DNA from: Solirubrobacter pauli
GTDB taxonomy: Bacteria; Actinomycetota; Thermoleophilia; Solirubrobacterales; Solirubrobacteraceae
Direction: 5' to 3'
Length of the DNA stretch: 64,000 nt
Assembly: GCF_003633755.1 (NCBI RefSeq)
Contig: NZ_RBIL01000002.1
Span: forward strand, 1,116,001-1,180,000
In this document: piece by piece, positions 4,519 through 50,376 of the stretch
How positions within the stretch are numbered: position 1 is the first letter of the stretch
Layout of the letters: every line of letters starts with the position of its first letter
The notes under the pieces: model-generated
The model's database searches: none
What the model saw: the letters and a program-made list of their open reading frames with translations, nothing else
What the model was told of the DNA's origin: nothing
Made by a program: the position numbers and the translations under genes

Positions 4519-4606
4519 GCGGACCACCCGGGATGCGGTGTGCTCGCCGCGGCTCAGCTCGCGACCAACGAGAGGTGAAGATGTCCCGTCATCCAGAGGT
4601 GCGGTC

Positions 4607-5374
4607 ATGACCGCCGTGGGGCCGGCGCCCATCGCCACGGGCGAGAAGCTCGTCGAGCTGCTGGCGCTCGTGCGCGAGGCCGACAGCGTCGAGCTCAAGG
4701 CCACCGTCCCGCTCGTCGACCAGCGCTCGACGCTGCTCGCGCTCGGCATCGACCCGCTCGAGGCCCAGATCCGGCTCGTCGTGTTCTTCGACACGCCCGA
4801 TCTCGCGCTCAACCGCCAAGGGGTCGTCGCGCGCGCCCGGCGCGTGCAGGGCAAGGGCGACGACTCGGTCATCAAGCTGCGCCCCGTCATCCCCGGCGAC
4901 ATGCCGGCCAAGCTGCGCCGGCAGTCGGGGTTCCGCGTCGAGGTCGACGCGCTGCCCGGAGGCTTCGTCTGCTCCGCGACGCTCAAGGAGGCGCTGAAGC
5001 CGCCCGCGGTGAAGTCGGCGTTGAGCGGCGACCTGCCGATCCGCAAGCTGTTCTCCAAGGAGCAGCGCGAGTTCTTCGCCGCCCACGCGCCCGACGGCGT
5101 GCGGCTCGACGACCTCACGCCACTCGGACCGATCTTCGTGCTCAAGGTGCGCTGCGTCCCGCCGGAGCTCGGTCGTCGGCTCGTCGCCGAGGTGTGGCTA
5201 TTCCCGGACGGCAGCCGGGTGCTCGAGCTGTCCACCCGCTGCGGGACCGACGAGGCGTTCCAGGTCGCGGCGGAGACGCGCGCCTGCCTGACCGCGCGGG
5301 GCGTCGACCTCGGCGGCGAGCAGCAGACGAAGACGCGCAAGGCGCTCGAGTACTTCGCCGGGCAGCAGGGATGA
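4607..5374 (+). CDS. CYTH domain protein
   Basis: 255 residues; ATG chosen because AGAGGTG lies seven bases upstream and because the domain begins soon after. CYTH (triphosphate tunnel metalloenzyme) features are an acidic-basic first strand (VELKATVP, residues 28-35), FFDTPDLALNRQG, RARRVQGKGDDSVIKLRPV and RQSGFRVEVD, giving the alternating charged strands that line the tunnel. Family members hydrolyse inorganic triphosphate or thiamine triphosphate, or make cAMP. No CHAD domain is attached. The stop overlaps the next start (ATGA), tying it to the Ppx fusion, so tripolyphosphate is the most likely substrate; this last point is inference. Confidence 0.8.
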   Translation: MTAVGPAPIATGEKLVELLALVREADSVELKATVPLVDQRSTLLALGIDPLEAQIRLVVFFDTPDLALNRQGVVARARRVQGKGDDSVIKLRPVIPGDMPAKLRRQSGFRVEVDALPGGFVCSATLKEALKPPAVKSALSGDLPIRKLFSKEQREFFAAHAPDGVRLDDLTPLGPIFVLKVRCVPPELGRRLVAEVWLFPDGSRVLELSTRCGTDEAFQVAAETRACLTARGVDLGGEQQTKTRKALEYFAGQQG

Positions 5375-6906
5375 CGGTCGTCGCGCGCTGGGAGTGGCGG
5401 ATCTTCGGCGACGCCTTCGCCGTCGCGCAACGGCGCCTGACGGCGACCGTGCCCGAGCGCGTCGAGCACAGCGACGAGATCTACGTGGTCGCTCGCGGCT
5501 CGGACGCCTCGGTGAAGCTCCGGGGCGGGAAGCTGGACGCCAAGCGGCTGCTCCGCGTGGACCCCGAGGGGCTCGAGCAGTGGGTGCCGGTGCTCAAGGC
5601 GCAGTTCCCGCTCACGGCGGCGGATCTCGGCGGCGTGCTGGAGTTGCTGGGCGTGCCGGGCGAGCACGCGGGCGCGGAGACGGCGGACGCGTTCCTCGCC
5701 CTCGTCGCGCGCGAGCCGGACCTGTGCGCCGTCGGCGTGCACAAGAACCGCGAGCACTACACGTTCGCGGGGTGCATGGCCGAGTCGACCGAGCTGCGCA
5801 CCGCCGGCGGCGCCATCCACACGCTCGCGGTCGAGTCGCCGGACCGTGAGCGCGTCGCCGCGGCGGTGAGCGCGCTCGGCCTCGCGGGCCGCAGCGTGGT
5901 GTCCGTCCCACGCGCGCTGAAGGCGCTGGTCGGCTTCGCGACCGCGCGGGCGGCGGTGATCGACATCGGCACCAACTCGGTCAAGTTCCACGTCGGTGAG
6001 CGCGGCGCCGAGGGCCGCTGGCGCACGGTGGTGGACCGCGCCGAGATCACGCGTCTGGGCGAGGGCCTCTCGGACGCCGACGAGCTCGCCCCGGACGCGA
6101 TCGCGCGGACCGTCGACGTGATCGCGACCATGGGGACCGAGGCGCGCAGCCTCGGCGCCGCACGGATCGCGGCCGTCGGCACCGCCGCCCTGCGGATCGC
6201 GCGCAACGCCTCCGACTTCACGACCGCCGTGCACGACCGCTGCGGGCTGGTCGTCGAGGTGCTGCCCGCGGACGAGGAGGCGCGGCTCGCCTCCCTCGCC
6301 GCGGTGGCCGACCTCGCGCCGGAGGCCGACCGGACCGCGGTGTTCGACACCGGCGGCGGGAGCACGCAGTTCACGTTCACCCGCGGCCGGGAGGTCGAGG
6401 ACCGGTTCAGCGTCGACGTCGGCGCCGTGCGGCTCACGGAGCGGTACGCGCTCGACGAGCCGGTGTCCGAGGAGACGCTGGGCACGGTGTACCGGGCGAT
6501 CGAGGCCGAGCTCGCGGTGCTGCGCGGGCGCGGACGCCCCGACGTCCTCGTAGGGATGGGCGGCGCGATCACCAACCTCACCGCGGTGCGGCACGGCCTC
6601 GCTCGATACGACCCGGAGGTCGTGCACGGGACGGTGCTGACCCGCCACGAGGTGGAGCGGCAGATCGAGGTCTACCGCCGGCGCTGGGCCGCGGAGCGCC
6701 GCGGGATCGTCGGGCTCCAGCCCGCGCGCGCCGAGGTGATCCTGGCCGGCGCGTGCGTCGTCCGGACCGTGCTCGCGCTGCTCGGCGCCGACGCGCTGCT
6801 CGTCAGCGACCGCGGGCTGCGGCACGGCGTCCTGGCCGAGCGCTTCGGCCGCCTGACCAACGGCCATGCGCGCGGGCGGCCCGTCGCCGGGATCGTCGAC
6901 CACTGA
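5371..6906 (+). CDS. CYTH-like/Ppx-GppA exopolyphosphatase fusion
   Basis: 511 residues in two parts. Residues about 1-185 look CYTH-like by strand pattern (RWEWRIFG, DEIYVV, DASVKLRGGKLDAKRLL, AIHTLAVESP); this is by eye and weaker than the rest. Residues about 194-490 are a Ppx/GppA ASKHA phosphatase: VIDIGTNSVKF (196-206), VGTAALRIARN, DEEARLASL, FDTGGGSTQF (325-334) and VGMGGAITNL. Such enzymes release phosphate from polyphosphate ends or from pppGpp. Ordinary Ppx proteins start directly with the phosphatase. The start overlaps the stop of the CYTH gene by four bases. Confidence 0.8.
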   Translation: MTVVARWEWRIFGDAFAVAQRRLTATVPERVEHSDEIYVVARGSDASVKLRGGKLDAKRLLRVDPEGLEQWVPVLKAQFPLTAADLGGVLELLGVPGEHAGAETADAFLALVAREPDLCAVGVHKNREHYTFAGCMAESTELRTAGGAIHTLAVESPDRERVAAAVSALGLAGRSVVSVPRALKALVGFATARAAVIDIGTNSVKFHVGERGAEGRWRTVVDRAEITRLGEGLSDADELAPDAIARTVDVIATMGTEARSLGAARIAAVGTAALRIARNASDFTTAVHDRCGLVVEVLPADEEARLASLAAVADLAPEADRTAVFDTGGGSTQFTFTRGREVEDRFSVDVGAVRLTERYALDEPVSEETLGTVYRAIEAELAVLRGRGRPDVLVGMGGAITNLTAVRHGLARYDPEVVHGTVLTRHEVERQIEVYRRRWAAERRGIVGLQPARAEVILAGACVVRTVLALLGADALLVSDRGLRHGVLAERFGRLTNGHARGRPVAGIVDH

Positions 6907-6961: not shown

Positions 6962-8815
6962 GTGGCGGGCGGAGAGATGACCTCGCACGCGGTCGACTCG
7001 ACCGCATCCCGGCCCACGCCGTCCCCGGCGGCGCGGCGGCTCACCAGCGCGCTGGCGCTGGTGGGCGCGTGCGTGTGCGCGCTGGCCGTCAGCTTCGTCG
7101 TGCAGGCGGCGCCGGCGGATCAGCGGGTCGCCCGCGGCGTGACGGAGCTGCTGGTGGTGGGCGTGCCGATCGTCGCCGGCCTCTACGCGCTCGGCAGCCC
7201 GCACACCGTCCGCAGCGGGGCGATGCTGCTGTCGATGGGGTTCGCGTGGTCGCTGACCGCGCTCGCCGAGTCGGACGAGAGCCTGCCATACAGCATCGGC
7301 CGCGTCGCCGCCTGGCTGGTGTTCCCGGGCCTGATCCTGCTGATGCTGACGTTCCCGAGCGGGGTCCTCGACCGCGGTCGGGACCGGGCGTTGCTGTACG
7401 CGTTGTGCGGGGTCCTGACGCTGCTGTTCCTCGCCTCCGCGCTGTTCGTCGTCGAGTTCCCGAGCTCCACGCCGTGGGCGACGTGCACGGACGACTGCCC
7501 GGCGAACGCGTTCATGGTCGTCGACCGCGAGCCGGCGATCGTGGGCCGCTTCCTCACCCCGGCGCGCGAGCTCCTCAGCGTCCTGCTGCTCAGCGGCGTG
7601 CTGGTGTCGATCCTGCTCCGCTGGCGCGCCGCGACGCCGCTGCAGCGGCGGACGATCTGGCCGGTCGTGATCGCGAGCAGCCTGTCGGTGGTGCTGCTGG
7701 CGGCGTTCTTCGTCGCACGCCGGCGCGGCGAAGACGCGTCGACCGTGGAGACCCTCGGCCTGCTGTGGGGACTTTGCATCCCGGCGATCTCGGCCGCCTT
7801 CCTGGCCGGGCTGCTCCGCCGCCGGCTGTTGCTGGGGCAGGTGCTCGCCGACCTCGCGGGGCACCTGAGCTCCGGGCTCGACGTCCGCCGCGTGCGCGAC
7901 GGCCTGGCCAGCGCGTTGCGCGACCCGTCGCTCGAGGTGCTCGTGGCCGACGGGCCGGTGCACTGGCGCGACAGCGACGGTCGCGTCGGCTCGCTCCCGG
8001 CCGCGGGGAGCGGGCGGGCGGTGACGATCGTCGGGGCGCAGACCGCGCCCGCGGTGGCGCTCGTCCACGACACCGGGTTGGAGGCGGATCAGGAGCTGCT
8101 GGGCGCGGTCGGCTCGCTCGTGCTGGGGACGGTGCGCCACCACGCGGTGGCGATGTCGCTCGCGGGCGCGCTGCAGCAGCTCGCGCAGTCGCGGCGGCGG
8201 ATCGCCGAGGCGGCCGACCACGAGCGCGCCCGGATCGAGCGCGACCTCCACGACGGCGCCCAGCAGCGGCTGATGGCGCTGCGGATCCGCCTGTCGCTGG
8301 CCGAGGAGCTGCTGACCACGGACCCGAAGACCGGCATCGGCGCGGTGCACGAGCTGGGGGACGAGGTCGAGCGCACGCTGGACGAGATCCGCGCGCTGGC
8401 GCACGGCGTCTACCCCGCGGTGCTCAACGACCGTGGGCTCGCGGACGCGCTGCGCAGCGTCGCGGCCGACGCGCCCTTGCCGGTCCACGTGCAGCTGCGC
8501 AGGCTGACCCGTCACTCGCGGCAGGTCGAGACCGCCATCTACTTCACGTGTGTCGAGGCGCTGCAGAACGCGGTCAAGCACGCGCACGGCGCGAGCGGCG
8601 TGTGGATCGCCGTGACCCAGGACGCCGTGCTGAGCTTCGAGATCCGCGACGACGGCGCCGGGTTCACGCCGCCGCCGGAGACGGGCGGGAACGTCCCGGG
8701 GCACATCGGCCTGCGCAACATGCGCGACCGGCTGGAGGCGGTCGGCGGGAGCCTCGTGGTCGAGTCCGCGCCCGGCCACGGCACCCGCATCAGCGGGCGG
8801 CTGCCGCTCGACTGA
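6962..8815 (+). CDS. NarL-type membrane sensor histidine kinase
   Basis: 617 residues. About eight hydrophobic helices fill the first 300 residues, then a dimerisation segment with the HisKA_3 box RIERDLHDGAQQRLMALR (phospho-acceptor His about 430) and an HATPase with ALQNAVKHAHGA, DDGAGF and GHIGLRNMRDRLEAVGG. Kinases of this class pair with NarL-type regulators. The likely partner is the regulator encoded convergently four bases downstream. GTG at 6962 and ATG at 6977 are both possible starts. The signal sensed is not evident. Confidence 0.85.
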   Translation: MAGGEMTSHAVDSTASRPTPSPAARRLTSALALVGACVCALAVSFVVQAAPADQRVARGVTELLVVGVPIVAGLYALGSPHTVRSGAMLLSMGFAWSLTALAESDESLPYSIGRVAAWLVFPGLILLMLTFPSGVLDRGRDRALLYALCGVLTLLFLASALFVVEFPSSTPWATCTDDCPANAFMVVDREPAIVGRFLTPARELLSVLLLSGVLVSILLRWRAATPLQRRTIWPVVIASSLSVVLLAAFFVARRRGEDASTVETLGLLWGLCIPAISAAFLAGLLRRRLLLGQVLADLAGHLSSGLDVRRVRDGLASALRDPSLEVLVADGPVHWRDSDGRVGSLPAAGSGRAVTIVGAQTAPAVALVHDTGLEADQELLGAVGSLVLGTVRHHAVAMSLAGALQQLAQSRRRIAEAADHERARIERDLHDGAQQRLMALRIRLSLAEELLTTDPKTGIGAVHELGDEVERTLDEIRALAHGVYPAVLNDRGLADALRSVAADAPLPVHVQLRRLTRHSRQVETAIYFTCVEALQNAVKHAHGASGVWIAVTQDAVLSFEIRDDGAGFTPPPETGGNVPGHIGLRNMRDRLEAVGGSLVVESAPGHGTRISGRLPLD

Positions 8816-8818
8816 GCG

Positions 8819-9505
8819 TCAGTGGGTCTCGAGCGCGCTCGTCTCGGCCTCCGACAGCAGCATCAGCGTGGCCTTCACGCGCTTGCTGACGTCCTCCGCG
8901 TCGGCGAGCCGGAGCTTGAGGAAGATCGCGTTGATGTGCTTCTCGACGGCGCGCTTGGTCAGGTAGAGCGTCTCCGCGATCGCGGTGTTGCTCTTGCCCT
9001 TGGCGATCTCGGTCAGCACCTCCCGCTCGCGCGCCGTCAGGTCGTTCAGCGGCGAGTGCTCGGCGCGGGCACGGGCTTTGACCAGCCCGTCGACGATCTG
9101 CGAGTCCACCATCGAGCCGTCCGTCGCGACCGCGCGGATCGCCGCGGTCAGCTCCGCGCGGTTGTGCACCCGCTGCTTGAGCAGGTACGCGCGGCGGTTG
9201 GAGCCGTGCTCGAACAGCGCCAGCGCGTAGATCGGATCGGCGTACTGGCTGAGGACCACCACGCCGACCTCGGGGTGCGAGTCGCGCAGCGCGGCGGCGG
9301 CGCGGATGCCCTCGTCCGTGTGCGTCGGCGGCATGCGGATGTCCGTCACCACCACGTCGGGCGCCTCGCGGGCGCACGCCTCGCGCAGCCCGTCGAAGTC
9401 ACCGGCGCAGGCCACCACGGCGATCTCGTCGTCGAGGTCGAGCAGGCGGCAGATGCCTTCGCGGACGAGCAGGCTGTCCTCACCCAGAACGATGCGGATG
9501 GGCAT
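8819..9505 (-). CDS. NarL/LuxR-type response regulator
   Basis: 228 residues. The receiver has the acidic pocket (GEDS), phospho-acceptor D55 in VVVTDIRMPP, and a C-terminal LuxR HTH (LTAREREVLTEIAKGKSN, then TKRAVEKHINAIFLKL). The gap after the aspartate is longer than usual (PPTHTDEGIRAA), a form common in actinobacterial LuxR-type regulators, and the usual receiver lysine is in YLLKQRV. It is convergent with the sensor kinase at 6962-8815, its probable partner. Confidence 0.88.
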   Translation of the reverse strand: MPIRIVLGEDSLLVREGICRLLDLDDEIAVVACAGDFDGLREACAREAPDVVVTDIRMPPTHTDEGIRAAAALRDSHPEVGVVVLSQYADPIYALALFEHGSNRRAYLLKQRVHNRAELTAAIRAVATDGSMVDSQIVDGLVKARARAEHSPLNDLTAREREVLTEIAKGKSNTAIAETLYLTKRAVEKHINAIFLKLRLADAEDVSKRVKATLMLLSEAETSALETH

Positions 9506-9592
9506 GGCCGGACACTACCAGCGAGCAGGGCGACCTCCGCTTCACCCGATTGAGGCGATGCGAAGATGGCACGACCGACCTAGCGTCGGCCC

Positions 9593-10561
9593 ATGGAGAC
9601 TTCGGGCCACATCCGTCACGCGCCGGTGCTCGCAGCGTTCTCCCCGGAAGCCGGCGCGCGGGAGCCGGTGGAGTTCGCCGTCGCGGCGAGCCGCATCACC
9701 GGCGCCCCGCTGATCATCGCCGTCGTGGTCGACACGGGCTCGCCCGTGCGGCTCGGCGGCACCGTCGCCGCCGACGGGCCGTCGTTGCCGGCCGGCGTCG
9801 CGGCGCCCGTCAGGCACCTGCAGTCCGAGCTGGAGGGCCGTGGCGTTCCGGTCGAGGTGCGCGTGTTCGAGGACTCCACGGCCGCGCGCGGCCTGGCCCG
9901 GGCGATCGACGAGCTCGAGCCCGAGCTCGTGGTCGTGGGGGCGACGAGCCGCGGGGAGCGCGGCGCCCTGCTGCTCGGCACGACGGCCGGGCGCGTGATC
10001 CGCGTCAGCGCCTGTCCGGTCGCGGTCGTGCCGCGGGGCTACACGCGTCCGGAGAACGGCGTCCAGGTCGTGTGCGCCGCCTACACGCGCACCCCCGAGG
10101 GTCAGGACGCGCTCCGGGCGGCGGCGTCGCTGGCGCGCAGCGGGCGCGTGGCGTTGCGGGTCATCCACGTCGTCGAGCCCAAGCACATGCAGGAGGAAGC
10201 GCATCAGCTGATGGCCGAGCAGCACCACGCCGTCGGCGCGGAGTCGCAGTACGCCGCACGCACGCGGCTGGACATCGAGGCCCAGACCCGTGCGGCGGTC
10301 GCCGAGGTGGCCGGTGACCTCGACGCGGACGTCGACCTGATGATCGACGAGCCGGTGCGCGCGCTCGCGGCCGCGTCCGGGCACGTCGACCTGCTGGTCA
10401 TGGGCTCCCGCGGGCTCGGTCCGCGGCGGTCGGTCGTGCTCGGCAGCGTCTCGCGGCGCGTGATCGAGCGGGCGGCCTGCCCGGTGATCGTGATCCCGCG
10501 CGACACGGAGGCCAAGAGCGAGGAGCTGCTGTCGGACGTGGAGGCGCACGCGCCGCGGTGA
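9593..10561 (+). CDS. two-domain universal stress protein
   Basis: 322 residues holding two UspA folds, about 8-145 and 155-305. Both show the ATP-binding ending: VVVGATSRGERGALLLGTT and the second-domain LVMGSRGLGPRRSVVLGSVS followed by CPVIVIPR. Such tandem Usp proteins bind ATP and are usually induced by hypoxia or stationary phase in actinobacteria. The gene lies alone, divergent from the response regulator upstream and convergent with a receiver gene downstream. Confidence 0.88.
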   Translation: METSGHIRHAPVLAAFSPEAGAREPVEFAVAASRITGAPLIIAVVVDTGSPVRLGGTVAADGPSLPAGVAAPVRHLQSELEGRGVPVEVRVFEDSTAARGLARAIDELEPELVVVGATSRGERGALLLGTTAGRVIRVSACPVAVVPRGYTRPENGVQVVCAAYTRTPEGQDALRAAASLARSGRVALRVIHVVEPKHMQEEAHQLMAEQHHAVGAESQYAARTRLDIEAQTRAAVAEVAGDLDADVDLMIDEPVRALAAASGHVDLLVMGSRGLGPRRSVVLGSVSRRVIERAACPVIVIPRDTEAKSEELLSDVEAHAPR

Positions 10562-10567
10562 GCGTCG

Positions 10568-10948
10568 TCAGCGGCGCCGGTGCGCGACCCACAGCCCGCG
10601 CAGCATGCGCGGCGTGAGCCAGTGCTTGCGCACCAGCGCCGCCGCACCGCACGAGCGGGCGAGCCCGGCGAGCTCGCCCGTCTCGACCGTCGTCGCGAGC
10701 ACGATCACCCGGGTCGCGTCCCGCGCTCGCAGCCGCGCGGCGACCTGCATGCCGTCCATCCCGTCCATGCGCACGTCGACGATCACCATGTCCGGGTCGA
10801 GCGTCTCCGCGTCGCGCAACGCGGCGGGCCCGTCGGCGGACGCGCCGACGTGCTCGAAGCCGGGCGTGGAGGCGACGATCGCGTGCGCGGCGGCGTGGAA
10901 GTGCGGCTGATCGTCCACCGTCATCAGCCGGACCGGGCGCGTGTCCAT
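10568..10948 (-). CDS. stand-alone response-regulator receiver
   Basis: 126 residues, a receiver domain only: acidic pair VDD (11-13), phospho-acceptor D58 in MVIVDVRMDGMDGMQ, the threonines of VLATT and a C-terminal lysine (LVRKHWL). There is no output domain, so it should work as a phosphorelay or CheY-like partner. ATG at 10948 is chosen because the domain begins there; longer in-frame starts add only low-complexity residues. It ends six bases from the convergent Usp gene. Confidence 0.75.
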   Translation of the reverse strand: MDTRPVRLMTVDDQPHFHAAAHAIVASTPGFEHVGASADGPAALRDAETLDPDMVIVDVRMDGMDGMQVAARLRARDATRVIVLATTVETGELAGLARSCGAAALVRKHWLTPRMLRGLWVAHRRR

Positions 10949-11025
10949 GGGCGCAGCATCGAGCGCGCCCGGCGGGCGGGCAAGGAGGTACGCACCTGCT
11001 CGGAGCGGACGCAGGCACGAACGCA

Positions 11026-11055
11026 AACGGGGCGCCCCGCCAGGGACGCCCCGTT
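11026..11055 (-). terminator. GC-rich hairpin downstream of ERCC4 nuclease gene
   Basis: AACGGGGCG pairs perfectly with CGCCCCGTT across a 12-base loop. Read on the minus strand it lies about 100 bases beyond the ERCC4 stop and ends in GTTTGCGTT, a weak U-rich tail. It separates that gene from the receiver gene. The rest of 10949-11154 shows no gene. Confidence 0.5.
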
Positions 11056-11154
11056 CACTGAGGAGGAGGGTGGCACGCCGACACGGAGGAGGGGGTTCCA
11101 AACGGCGCGACACGACTGGGGTTCCCGCCGGCTCGGGTTCGATAACCGCGACTT

Positions 11155-46936: not shown

Positions 46937-47470
46937 CGCGGCCGTCCGCAGCGCCCGCGCCGTCGCCTCGCGGTGCGCGGGGCGCGGCGTCGTCCAGGCG
47001 AGCTGGCGCAGCGCGGGGGCGAGCCGCTCGGCCTCGGCGGCGAGCGCCGTCGCGCGGGCGAGCGCGGCGCGGTGGTCCTCCGCCGGCACCATGGCGCGGG
47101 CCGGGCGCACGCACACGCCGATGCACGGCTGCGGCGCCTCGATGTGCCCGCAGTCGCAGCGCCACGTGGTGACCTCGAGCGCGGGCTCGGGCACCCGCGG
47201 GGCGTGCAGCACGGCGCGGGCGCGGGTGCGCAGCGCCGCCCACTCGCCATCGGCGAGCGTGGACCGCGCGACCTCGGCGAGCAGCGCCCGGCGTTCGGCC
47301 AGCAGCGTCTCCAGCGCATCGACCGCCGCCAGCGCCGCCGCGTGCTCGTCCGCCGGGACGAGGTCCAGCCGGTGCTCGTGGCAGCCGCCGAGGCACGGCT
47401 GCGGCGTCTCGATCGCGCCGCAGCCGATGCACTGGTTGACCGTGATCACGTCAAGCGGCCTGGGCGACAT
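46913..47470 (-). CDS. hypothetical protein with duplicated Cys motif
   Basis: 185 residues. Two copies of a cysteine motif stand about 90 residues apart: C14-x2-C17-GAIETPQPC26-LGGC30 and C105-x-C107-GHIEAPQPC116-IGVC120. Each is followed by a charged helix (VPADEHAAAL, VPAEDHRAAL), so the protein is an internal duplication, probably binding two metal ions. I do not recognise the family. It is coupled to the upstream universal stress gene by a 20-base overlap and convergent with ureC (24-base overlap). Confidence 0.65.
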   Translation of the reverse strand: MSPRPLDVITVNQCIGCGAIETPQPCLGGCHEHRLDLVPADEHAAALAAVDALETLLAERRALLAEVARSTLADGEWAALRTRARAVLHAPRVPEPALEVTTWRCDCGHIEAPQPCIGVCVRPARAMVPAEDHRAALARATALAAEAERLAPALRQLAWTTPRPAHREATARALRTAASAQQEAA

Positions 47471-47939
47471 CCTGGTCCTCGGCCGGGCAGCCGTGGCGGA
47501 CGACGAGCGTCGGGCGCGTGGCGTGGTGGACGACAGCGTTGCTCACGCTGCCGAGGACGAGCGACCGGATGCCGCTCAGCCCGCGCGACCCGAGCACGAT
47601 CGCGGCGGCGTCGCGGTCGTCGGCCGCGGCGAGGATCGCCTGCCAGATCGGGCCGCTCGCGCGCATGGCCATCGGCTCTGCGTCCAGGCCGGCCTCGCGG
47701 GCCAGCGTGGCGCCCCGCTCGGCCAGCTCGGCGGCGGCGTCCGCGGCGGCCTTGTCGAGCGCGTCGAGGTCCTCCGCGTAGACCATGCCCGGCCAGGCGT
47801 AGGTGAGCTGCGCCTGGGCGCGTGGCCAGGCGACGAGCACGACCGCGGGGCGCCCTCCGAACAGCGCCGCGGCGCGCTGGATGGCGACCGCGGCGTCATC
47901 GGAGCCGTCGTAGCAGAGGATCACGGGGGAGGCGGTCAT
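47451..47939 (-). CDS. universal stress protein
   Basis: 162 residues, one UspA domain: VILCYDGSDDAAVAIQRAA at the start and IVLGSRGLSGIRSLVLGSVS with the G-x2-G-x9-GS ATP-binding ending. AAGGA lies eight bases before the ATG. It follows the phosphoketolase gene on the same strand after 82 bases and overlaps the next gene. Stress proteins of this type accompany fermentative or hypoxia genes in actinobacteria, which fits the neighbour. Confidence 0.88.
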   Translation of the reverse strand: MTASPVILCYDGSDDAAVAIQRAAALFGGRPAVVLVAWPRAQAQLTYAWPGMVYAEDLDALDKAAADAAAELAERGATLAREAGLDAEPMAMRASGPIWQAILAAADDRDAAAIVLGSRGLSGIRSLVLGSVSNAVVHHATRPTLVVRHGCPAEDQDVAQAA

Positions 47940-48019
47940 CGTCGGGTCCTTCGGTCGGTGCTTGGTACTCCCAACCTAGGTCCGTGTCCGCCTCCCCGGC
48001 TTCGGGGAAGTCCGAGACC

Positions 48020-48040
48020 GACTACGGGTTTTCCGTAGTC
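48020..48040 (-). terminator. perfect 8-bp hairpin at phosphoketolase stop
   Basis: GACTACGG and CCGTAGTC pair across a 5-base loop; the minus-strand hairpin contains the phosphoketolase TAG. A second hairpin, CCCCG with CGGGG, follows at about 47993-48006. There is no U-run, so termination would be of the weak GC-rich type. Confidence 0.4.
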
Positions 48041-50376
48041 CAGACCCAGTCGCGCAGCTCGGCCGGGTCGTCGCCGTGCTCGCGCGTGTAGGCGCGGGCC
48101 CGCAGCCGCTCGTCGACCATCTGCTGGCGCAGCAGCGCGGCGCGCTGGCCCAGTCCCGGCACCCGGTCGATCACGTCGATCACCAGGTGGAAGCGGTCCA
48201 TGTCGTTGAGCATCACCATGTCGAACGGCGTCGTGGTCGTGCCCTCCTCCTTGTAGCCGCGCACGTGCAGGTTCATGTGGTTCGTGCGGCGGTACGTGAG
48301 CCGGTGGATCAGCCACGGGTAGCCGTGGTAGGCGAAGATCACGGGCTTGTCGGTGGTGAACAGCGCGTCGAACAGGCCGTGGCTGAGGCCGTGCGGGTGC
48401 TCGCTCTCGTCCTGCAGGCGCATCAGGTCGACCACGTTGATCACGCGCACCTTCAGCTCGGGCAGGTGCTCGCGCAGGAGCGCGGCCGCGGCGACGGTCT
48501 CCAGCGTCGGGATGTCGCCCGCGCACGCGAGGACGACGTCGGGCTCGCCGCCCCCGTCGCTGGACGCCCAGTCCCAGATGCCGATGCCGCGCGTGCAGTG
48601 CGCGACCGCCTCGTCCATCGTCAGGTAGTCGAGCGCGGGCTGCTTGCCGGCGACGATCACGTTCACGTAGTGGCGGCTGCGCAGGCAGTGGTCGGCGACC
48701 GAGAGCAGGCAGTTCGCGTCCGGCGGCAGGTAGACGCGGATGACCTCGGACTTCTTGTTGACGACGTGGTCGATGAACCCCGGGTCCTGGTGCGAGAAGC
48801 CGTTGTGGTCCTGGCGCCAGACGTGCGAGGAGAGCAGGTAGTTGAGCGACGCGACCGGCCGCCGCCACGGGATGTGGCGCGTCGTCTTGAGCCACTTCGC
48901 GTGTTGGTTGAACATCGAGTCGACGATGTGGATGAACGCCTCGTAGCTGTTGAACAGCCCGTGGCGCCCGGTCAGCAGGTAGCCCTCGAGCCAGCCCTGG
49001 CACAGGTGCTCGCTCAGCACCTCCATCACCCGGCCGTCCGGCGCCATGTGCTCGTCGGCGTCCTTGATCTCGGCCATCCACGCGCGGTCGGTCGCCTCGA
49101 CGACGGCGCCGAGCCGGTTCGAGACGGTCTCGTCGGGGCCGAAGATGCGGAACGACGTGTCGTTGGCGACCGCGACGTCGCGCAGCCAGCCGCCGAGCAC
49201 GCGCGTGGCCTCGCTCGAGCTGTAGCCGGGGGAGTCGACCTCGACCGCGTAGTCGCGGAAGTCCGGCAGCTCCAGGTCGTGCAGCAGCAGTCCGCCGTTG
49301 GCGTGCGGGTTGGCGCCCATCCGGCGCTCGCCGGCCGGTGCGAGGGCGACCACCTCGGGCAGCGGGCGGCCCTGGTCGTCGAACAGCTCCTCGGGCCGGT
49401 ACGACCGCATCCACGCCTCGAGCTGCTCGACGCGCTCCTCGTGCCCGGCGAGCCCGGACAGCGGCACCTGGTGCGAGGCCGGCGTGGCCTCGTTCGGCCC
49501 GGTCCAGCCCTTCGGCGTCCGCAGCACGAGCATCGGCCAGCGCGGACGCTCGGTGCTGCCGTTGCGCGCGTCGTCCTGGATCCGCGCGATGTCGGCGACG
49601 ATCGCGTCGAGCGTGCCCGCGAGCTCCTGGTGGACCGTCTCGAGGTCGTCGGTCTCGACGAAGAACGGCGTGTGCCCGTAACCGCGCATCAACGCGTCGA
49701 GCTCGTCGTGCGTGATCCGGCTGAGCACCGTCGGGTTGGCGATCTTGTAGCCGTTCAGGTGCAGGATCGGCAGCACGGCGCCGTCACGCGCCGGGTTGAG
49801 GAACTTGTTCGAGTGCCAGCTCGCGGCGAGCGGGCCGGTCTCGGCCTCGCCGTCGCCGATCACACACGCGACGAGCAGATCCGGGTTGTCGAGCGCGGCG
49901 CCGTAGGCGTGCGCGAGCGCGTACCCGAGCTCACCGCCCTCGTGGATCGAGCCGGGCGTCTCAGGCGCGACGTGGCTCGGGATGCCACCCGGGAAGGAGA
50001 ACTGGCGGAACAGCTTGCGGATGCCGTCCTCGTCGCGCCCGATGTTCGGATAGACCTCGCTGTAGCTGCCCTCCAGCCACGTGCTGGCGACGAGCCCGGG
50101 GCCGCCGTGCCCGGGACCGGCGATGTAGATCGTGCTCAGGTCGTGAGCCTGGATGACGCGGTTCAGGTGCGCGTACAGCAGGTTCAGCCCGGGCGTCGTC
50201 CCCCAGTGGCCGAGCAGCCGCGGCTTGACGTGCTCGGGCAGGAGCGGCTCGCGCAGGAGCGGGTTCCCGAGCAGGTAGATCTGCCCGACGGACAGGTAGT
50301 TGGCGGCGCGCCACCAGGCGTCCAGCCGCGCGACCTCCTCCGCCGACAGCGGAGCAGGCGTCTCGGTCATGGCCAT
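48022..50376 (-). CDS. xfp: phosphoketolase (xylulose-5-P/fructose-6-P)
   Basis: 784 residues, full length. TPP-enzyme motifs: [75 protein letters not shown] and the TPP motif [20 protein letters not shown]; later [20 protein letters not shown] and [15 protein letters not shown]. It splits xylulose-5-P (or fructose-6-P) into acetyl phosphate and glyceraldehyde-3-P (erythrose-4-P). No acetate kinase is next to it. Start ATG at 50376; ATG at 50370 is also possible. Confidence 0.96.

Follow-up and report, generated by a model that had tools for sequence, protein, structure and literature searches.

A conserved and mobile gene set combining two predicted triphosphate-tunnel folds with a Ppx/GppA domain in Solirubrobacter pauli and other bacteria

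Introduction

Near the start of the stretch of 64,000 nucleotides of Solirubrobacter pauli DNA that was analyzed here (the window), a gene for a CYTH-like protein overlaps a gene in which a Ppx/GppA domain is preceded by an additional N-terminal part. This raises the question of what such a phosphatase domain does together with its two companions, in particular whether these hydrolyze phosphate chains themselves or serve in chain binding. According to PMC8233210, Iyer & Aravind 2002 had already noted fusions of CYTH domains with exopolyphosphatases. The features of the locus are as follows.

P0001, 4607..5374, + strand: 255 aa; predicted CYTH/TTM-fold protein; TTM motifs in the variant forms SxExK and ExS; Lys242 (plug helix) retained
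ATGA overlap, 5371..5374, + strand: start of P0002 and stop of P0001
P0002, 5371..6906, + strand: 511 aa; CYTH-like domain and Ppx/GppA domain fused
N-domain of P0002, 5371..5931, + strand: residues 1-187; predicted CYTH-like tunnel with the pattern RxExR...ExY...KxR...K...KxR...E...AxE; without Pfam match
Ppx/GppA catalytic domain of P0002, 5944..6846, + strand: residues 192-492; DTGGGSTQ replaces DxGGGSxE; nearest solved relative is Aquifex aeolicus Ppx

Organization of the gene pair

The original prediction had started from two frames overlapping by ATGA, and both were recovered with the overlap at 5371-5374. The frames are not due to chance, as whole-length alignments can be made of 25 full-length fusions and of 19 P0001 family members. 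Because many of these full-length homologs are found in distant genomes, both frames and the fusion itself are considered real. The overlap makes translational coupling of P0001 and P0002 likely, and in other genomes the two genes likewise abut directly or meet in an ATGA-type junction, in reversed order (L040, L041). A nine-codon frame, MSRHPEVRS, is located at window positions 4581-4610; it is preceded by a purine-rich sequence resembling a ribosome-binding site, and its ATGA end overlaps the start of P0001. This frame is possibly a leader peptide or part of an alternative start arrangement.

P0001 as a predicted stand-alone tunnel protein

With the Pfam CYTH model, P0001 alone stays below threshold (E 0.23; 11.7 bits vs a gathering score of 23.2), and 17 of the 19 members of its family match at E <= 1, the best with 1.4e-5. 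The AlphaFold2 model of P0001, which was built from 19 sequences, has a mean pLDDT of 90.6, and its leading matches in the PDB are all tunnel enzymes, with Z-scores of up to 17.0. The matches include 2gfg (Z 17.0, rmsd 2.8, 187 aligned residues), AtTTM3 (5a67; Z 16.2, rmsd 3.2, 196 aligned), YgiF (5a60; Z 13.1), and SaTTM (7nsf; Z 11.7), followed by the VTC tunnels Vtc4 (3g3q) and Vtc2 (3g3o) with Z of about 9. As modelled, P0001 is thus a CYTH/triphosphate-tunnel protein with an eight-stranded tunnel fold; its assignment to CYTH in the original prediction is borne out by the Z-scores of 16-17 to solved tunnel enzymes.

In a motif register that was set by the family alignment and the end points of the structural matches, neither the ExExK motif of strand 1 nor the ExE motif of strand 8 is present in the P0001 family. 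All 19 members have S/A/T-x-E-x-K and E-x-S instead, with S/A/T at position 27 and Ser at position 209. P0001 retains E29, K31, R76, R78, K90, E112, D114, E195, E207, and K242 of the plug helix. A P0001-like hypothetical protein with 34% identity over two thirds of the length is also encoded on a conjugative plasmid of Nostoc sp. UHCC 0302 (L132, 4668-5519), with no annotated Ppx gene adjoining.

A second predicted tunnel in the N-domain of P0002

Pfam has no match in P0002 before residue 190. In the AlphaFold2 prediction of the whole fusion (pLDDT 89), the N-domain comprises eight strands (6-13, 30-41, 44-51, 54-63, 69-78, 118-132, 135-144, and 147-156; block-mean pLDDT 80-97), with two helices between strands 69-78 and 118-132 and more helices after the last strand, which is the order found in CYTH proteins. 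A search of the BFVD with the fusion model yielded, among the best matches, viral proteins that are annotated as CYTH and are 155-183 aa long, namely A0A6J7WT37 (E 8.6e-5), A0A6J5RXU0 (1.4e-4), and A0A219YCE3 (9.2e-4), with a Foldseek probability of 1.00 and target-normalized TM-scores of 0.37-0.52. These matches are owed to the N-domain, as the Ppx part could not have yielded them. The corresponding fold search in the PDB was uninformative on the N-domain, the match list being occupied by the Ppx half.

Across 30 N-domains, a set that takes in four divergent members, free-standing ones among them, the residues R6, E8, R10, Y38, K49, R51, K58, K125, R127, E138, and E155 are invariant. They match the order and local spacing of the ExExK, DxY, RxR, K, KxR, and ExE motifs of SaTTM, in a mapping by motif order and strand position rather than by residue-level structural alignment. 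The basic residues of the tunnel are represented by K49xR51, K58, and K125xR127 in 30/30 sequences, and the counterpart of DxY is E/D36xY38. The metal-binding motifs ExExK and ExE are absent from the N-domains: RxExR is found in all 30, and the last motif has a single invariant Glu, in a register that can be read as A153/E155 or as E155/157. Position 153 is Ala, Ser, or Val.

The Pfam CYTH model matched none of 28 N-domains, which indicates that present sequence models miss this clade. In hhalign comparisons, the N-domain matched neither the P0001 set nor the canonical CYTH set, and a control pair of true CYTH groups was unmatched as well, which leaves these comparisons without evidential value. 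When viral contigs were searched with the N-domain, no relative came up. Predicted strands, viral CYTH matches, and residue pattern agree that residues 1-187 are predicted to form an eight-stranded CYTH-like tunnel, as had been suspected for the extra N-terminal part.

The Ppx/GppA domain

Residues 215-490 of P0002 match Pfam Ppx-GppA with an E-value of 6e-49 (167 bits vs a cut-off of 27). The modelled domain shares 34-35% identity with A. aeolicus Ppx/GppA (1t6c, 1t6d, 2j4r) at Z 35-37, the value for 1t6d being 37. Its best NCBIfam match is 'exopolyphosphatase', under the cut-off of that model. The residues that matter in the PPX of D. radiodurans include D7, T10, N11, S12, R86, E114, D136, and E143 (PMC11234463), the first seven of which are kept in P0002 as D198, T201, N202, S203, R275, E303, and D326. 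Four of the five members of the catalytic set (D7, R86, E114, D136, E143) are therefore present. The fifth, which is the catalytic or metal-binding Glu of DxGGGSxE, is replaced by Gln333 (window 6367-6369) in 25/25 fusions. As the E143A exchange lowered the kcat of DrPPX about tenfold (PMC11234463), the presence of Gln333 in every fusion suggests that the Ppx reaction itself could be altered. Both Ppx proteins of M. tuberculosis have Glu at this position (PMC3411833). Gln is also found at the same site in several ordinary Ppx paralogs of related genomes (L014, L018, L019, L022, L024, L027, L028).

Distribution and linkage

The same fusion in other genomes had been proposed as a check of the original prediction, and it was found across several phyla and classes, namely Actinomycetota, Chloroflexota, Armatimonadota, and alpha-, beta-, and gammaproteobacteria. 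It is encoded in Thermoleophilia, Acidimicrobiia, Nocardioides, Cellulomonas, Chloroflexota, an armatimonadete, Rhizobiaceae, Tabrizicola, and Chromatiaceae, and also on a megaplasmid of Cupriavidus. The tree mixes phyla, with two Thiocapsa sequences lying apart and Nocardioides falling into two clades, as would be expected from horizontal transfer. The set is thus both conserved and mobile.

In most loci, a P0001 homolog adjoins the fusion in either order. It is located 5' of the fusion in the window and in L006, L039, L044, L049, L057, and L131, 3' in L033-L037, L040-L042, L048, and L051, and once on the opposite strand (L050). Where the partner is not adjacent, it is often encoded elsewhere in the genome. 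Both families are present in G002, G003, G004, G035, G088, and G434 and neither in G001 and G006; in the genus sample, both occur in five genomes and neither in two. Among 396 genomes of the phylum, the two families are found in five and eight, three of which are shared; this is above chance (p 5e-5, kinship ignored), and the partner is also present in genomes without the fusion. In a mirror-tree comparison, distances between partners correlated with those of the Ppx domain (r 0.61; 11/2000 permutations as high). The correlation with the N-domain was r 0.09, showing no sign that this domain and the partner co-evolve, and direct co-evolution of the two tunnels is without support.

The modules also occur in other combinations. 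Contig L035, from Thermoleophilia, encodes the N-domain and the Ppx domain in two genes, one directly after the other, with the gene for the partner next to follow. A frameshift is an unlikely cause of this split, as the N-domain gene has a stop, the Ppx gene starts with GTG about ten bases further on, and both align over their full lengths. The N-domain is absent from two Lamprocystis loci with Ppx and partner (L053, L054) and stands alone in L067, where it adjoins a SulP gene. In two unrelated genomes, a free-standing N-domain adjoins a canonical ExExK-type CYTH protein (E 5e-16 in L059 and 1e-14 in L069). In the Neomarinimicrobiota contig L059 (3962-5067), the N-domain homolog and the short CYTH are encoded in overlapping frames; in L069 (5313-6400; G145, from the phylum of the window), a histidine phosphatase gene is also present beside the two.

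Genomic context

In seven loci, spread over different classes and phyla, genes for SulP-STAS sulfate/anion transporters directly adjoin the fusion, a free N-domain, or a P0001 homolog, in several orientations:

L035, 6350-8095: SulP-STAS gene
L036, 2166-3857: SulP-STAS gene
L038, 2265-3929: SulP-STAS gene
L048, 2146-3810: SulP-STAS gene
L056, 5488-7209: SulP-STAS gene
L067, 4163-5818: SulP-STAS gene
L108, 5796-7100: SulP-STAS gene

With genomes carrying 4-10 SulP genes each, a rough Poisson estimate puts the expected number of such cases below 0.4. No SulP gene is located beside the pair in the window or beside most other loci. Genes for P-type cation ATPases (PF00689 type) are adjoining or two genes away in four loci:

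L041, 1-2319: P-type cation ATPase gene
L056, 1192-4029: P-type cation ATPase gene
L067, 401-3163: P-type cation ATPase gene
L072, 2433-5153: P-type cation ATPase gene

Directly 3' of the pair, window positions 6962-11113 encode a HisKA_3 kinase, a LuxR-type regulator, a double Usp protein, and a second response regulator, and a second Usp gene adjoins a phosphoketolase gene 40 kb further on (47454-50376). A phosphoketolase gene is also found near the set in L038. Kinase or response-regulator genes adjoin the set in L035 and L073 as well as in the window. The DosR dormancy regulon of M. tuberculosis includes the possible sulfate transporter Rv1739c and the cation ATPase gene ctpF (PMC4082495). 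By analogy with these two regulon members, it would be reasonable, though unproven, to regard the neighborhood of the set as a DosR-like stress or anoxia island.

The genome of S. pauli also encodes PPK1 with its own adjoining Ppx, PPK2, and a CHAD protein, and has three other Ppx proteins in all. This argues for an accessory role of the pair outside the housekeeping polyphosphate pathway.

Proposed function

The residues of the tunnel motifs in SaTTM are E5/E7/K9, D38/Y40, R56/R58, K69, K110/R112, and E135/E137 (PMC8233210). One metal is bound by E7 and E135, and the water-activating metal requires E5 and E137, a split of ligands that follows a reading of the text of PMC8233210. In the P0001 family, the position of E5 is taken by Ser, Ala, or Thr and that of E137 by Ser (19/19), and in all 30 N-domains Arg stands at the position of E5. 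Judged from sequence, metal ligands of the two-metal hydrolytic site are lost in both tunnels. The prediction for both is therefore binding of phosphate chains, with the standard two-metal hydrolysis probably impaired, although a tunnel that lacks one or two metal ligands need not be inactive, since the first Glu is also missing from other Pfam-recognized CYTH proteins of the genus (NxExK).

In the proposed mechanism, the pair would be an accessory unit for the handling of polyphosphate. Its Ppx/GppA domain would remove terminal phosphates from polyphosphate or a similar oligophosphate chain, and the fused tunnel and the partner CYTH protein, which may associate with it, would mainly capture, thread, or hold the chain for Ppx, or take over the short end product. 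Hydrolysis of the chain by the Ppx half, with both tunnels serving to hold, thread, or cap it, is given an even chance of being correct. A more elaborate version, in which a horizontally mobile polyphosphate machine with two non-hydrolytic tunnels, one of them from a so far overlooked CYTH clade, threads or measures the chain for a Gln-type Ppx and works together with SulP anion transport and cation ATPases in a dormancy-like stress island, has to be regarded as tentative and rather doubtful.

Alternatively, polyphosphate might be degraded completely, with Ppx shortening the chain and one or both tunnels hydrolyzing the tripolyphosphate that is left over, which would give phosphate and pyrophosphate. 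CYTH enzymes with tripolyphosphatase activity include NeuTTM and YgiF, and Ppx of E. coli acts poorly on PPPi (PMC3440374); moreover, free N-domains are encoded beside a CYTH of the canonical tripolyphosphatase type, and one metal pair (E29, E207) remains in P0001 together with the plug-helix Lys. This is opposed by S/A/T27 and S209 in P0001, where SaTTM requires E5 and E137 for water activation (PMC8233210), and by R6 and the missing Glu of ExE in the N-domain, which makes this pathway unlikely. The idea of two CYTH hydrolases finishing tripolyphosphate is thus the weaker of the two that had been put forward. The metal-ligand loss favors the other, a CYTH part as a polyphosphate-binding module, so that the evidence speaks more for a module that binds the chain or feeds it to Ppx than for two additional hydrolases. 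That such a module replaces CHAD could apply at most to P0002 itself, as the genome also encodes a CHAD protein.

The substrate might also be another anionic oligophosphate such as a nucleoside tetra- or pentaphosphate, pppGpp, or a triphosphorylated cofactor, with specificity provided by the tunnels. The Ppx/GppA family has pppGpp and nucleotide phosphatases among its members, and Gln333, which never varies, is similar to the Gln in the NTPDase motif DLGGASTQ, NTPDases being the next fold neighbors of the P0002 domain. A housekeeping Ppx is already encoded beside ppk1, and AtTTM1/2, which do not have the TTM motifs, act on pyrophosphate (PMC8233210). As the Ppx domain is closest to A. aeolicus Ppx/GppA, its best NCBIfam match is an exopolyphosphatase (below cut-off), and the many basic residues of the tunnels would fit a long phosphate chain, a low probability is assigned to such substrates. 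It is very improbable that catalytically weak tunnels and Ppx act as regulators or sensors that bind polyphosphate or ligands containing Pi and thereby control a neighbor, for example the SulP transporter or a two-component system, as the adjoining SulP-STAS and kinase/response-regulator genes might suggest, because the active-site loops of Ppx are almost completely retained and most loci, including the window, have no SulP gene at their side.

Comparison with known systems

Polyphosphate handling by Ppx with accessory tunnels would differ from the systems described so far in several respects. The fusions of Iyer & Aravind 2002 likewise join a CYTH-type domain to an exopolyphosphatase; as far as the mention in the citing paper allows comparison, the N-domain of P0002 differs in lying outside Pfam CYTH and in having RxExR instead of ExExK. 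The short-chain polyphosphatase YgiF of E. coli (5a60; TTM-CHAD; PMC6537752) also combines a tunnel with a second polyphosphate-related module in one chain. In YgiF, however, catalysis is carried out by the tunnel and polyphosphate binding by CHAD, whereas in P0002 Ppx is the likely catalyst, the degenerate tunnel would be accessory, and CHAD is missing. The two-domain catalytic core is common to P0002 and A. aeolicus Ppx/GppA, which has no N-terminal tunnel and has DQGGGSTE instead of DTGGGSTQ. P0001 resembles the tripolyphosphatases AtTTM3 and SaTTM in fold, RxR, Lys, and one metal pair, with K242 falling at K200 of AtTTM3, but has SxExK and ExS where these enzymes have ExExK and ExE. The tunnel fold is also used for polyphosphate in the yeast VTC subunits Vtc4 and Vtc2; these tunnels are parts of a membrane polyphosphate polymerase, none of whose parts were found beside the pair.

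New elements are the clade of RxExR tunnels that is invisible to Pfam, the conserved set of two tunnels plus Ppx with loss of metal ligands, and its context of SulP, cation-ATPase, and stress-regulator genes. If the tunnels bind without cutting, they would represent a second bacterial way, besides CHAD, to equip a polyphosphatase with a chain-holding module, and tunnel proteins that are now called hypothetical would gain a function. The recurrent SulP, cation-ATPase, and stress-regulator neighbors would link the unit to stress or dormancy physiology.

A different type of CYTH fusion is encoded in the same genome as the window: in L076 (2323-3933), a CYTH domain with NxExK is joined to a cytidine/dCMP deaminase domain in one frame of 537 aa, and the sequences of L110, L111, L115, and L118 suggest a similar CYTH-deaminase arrangement in relatives.
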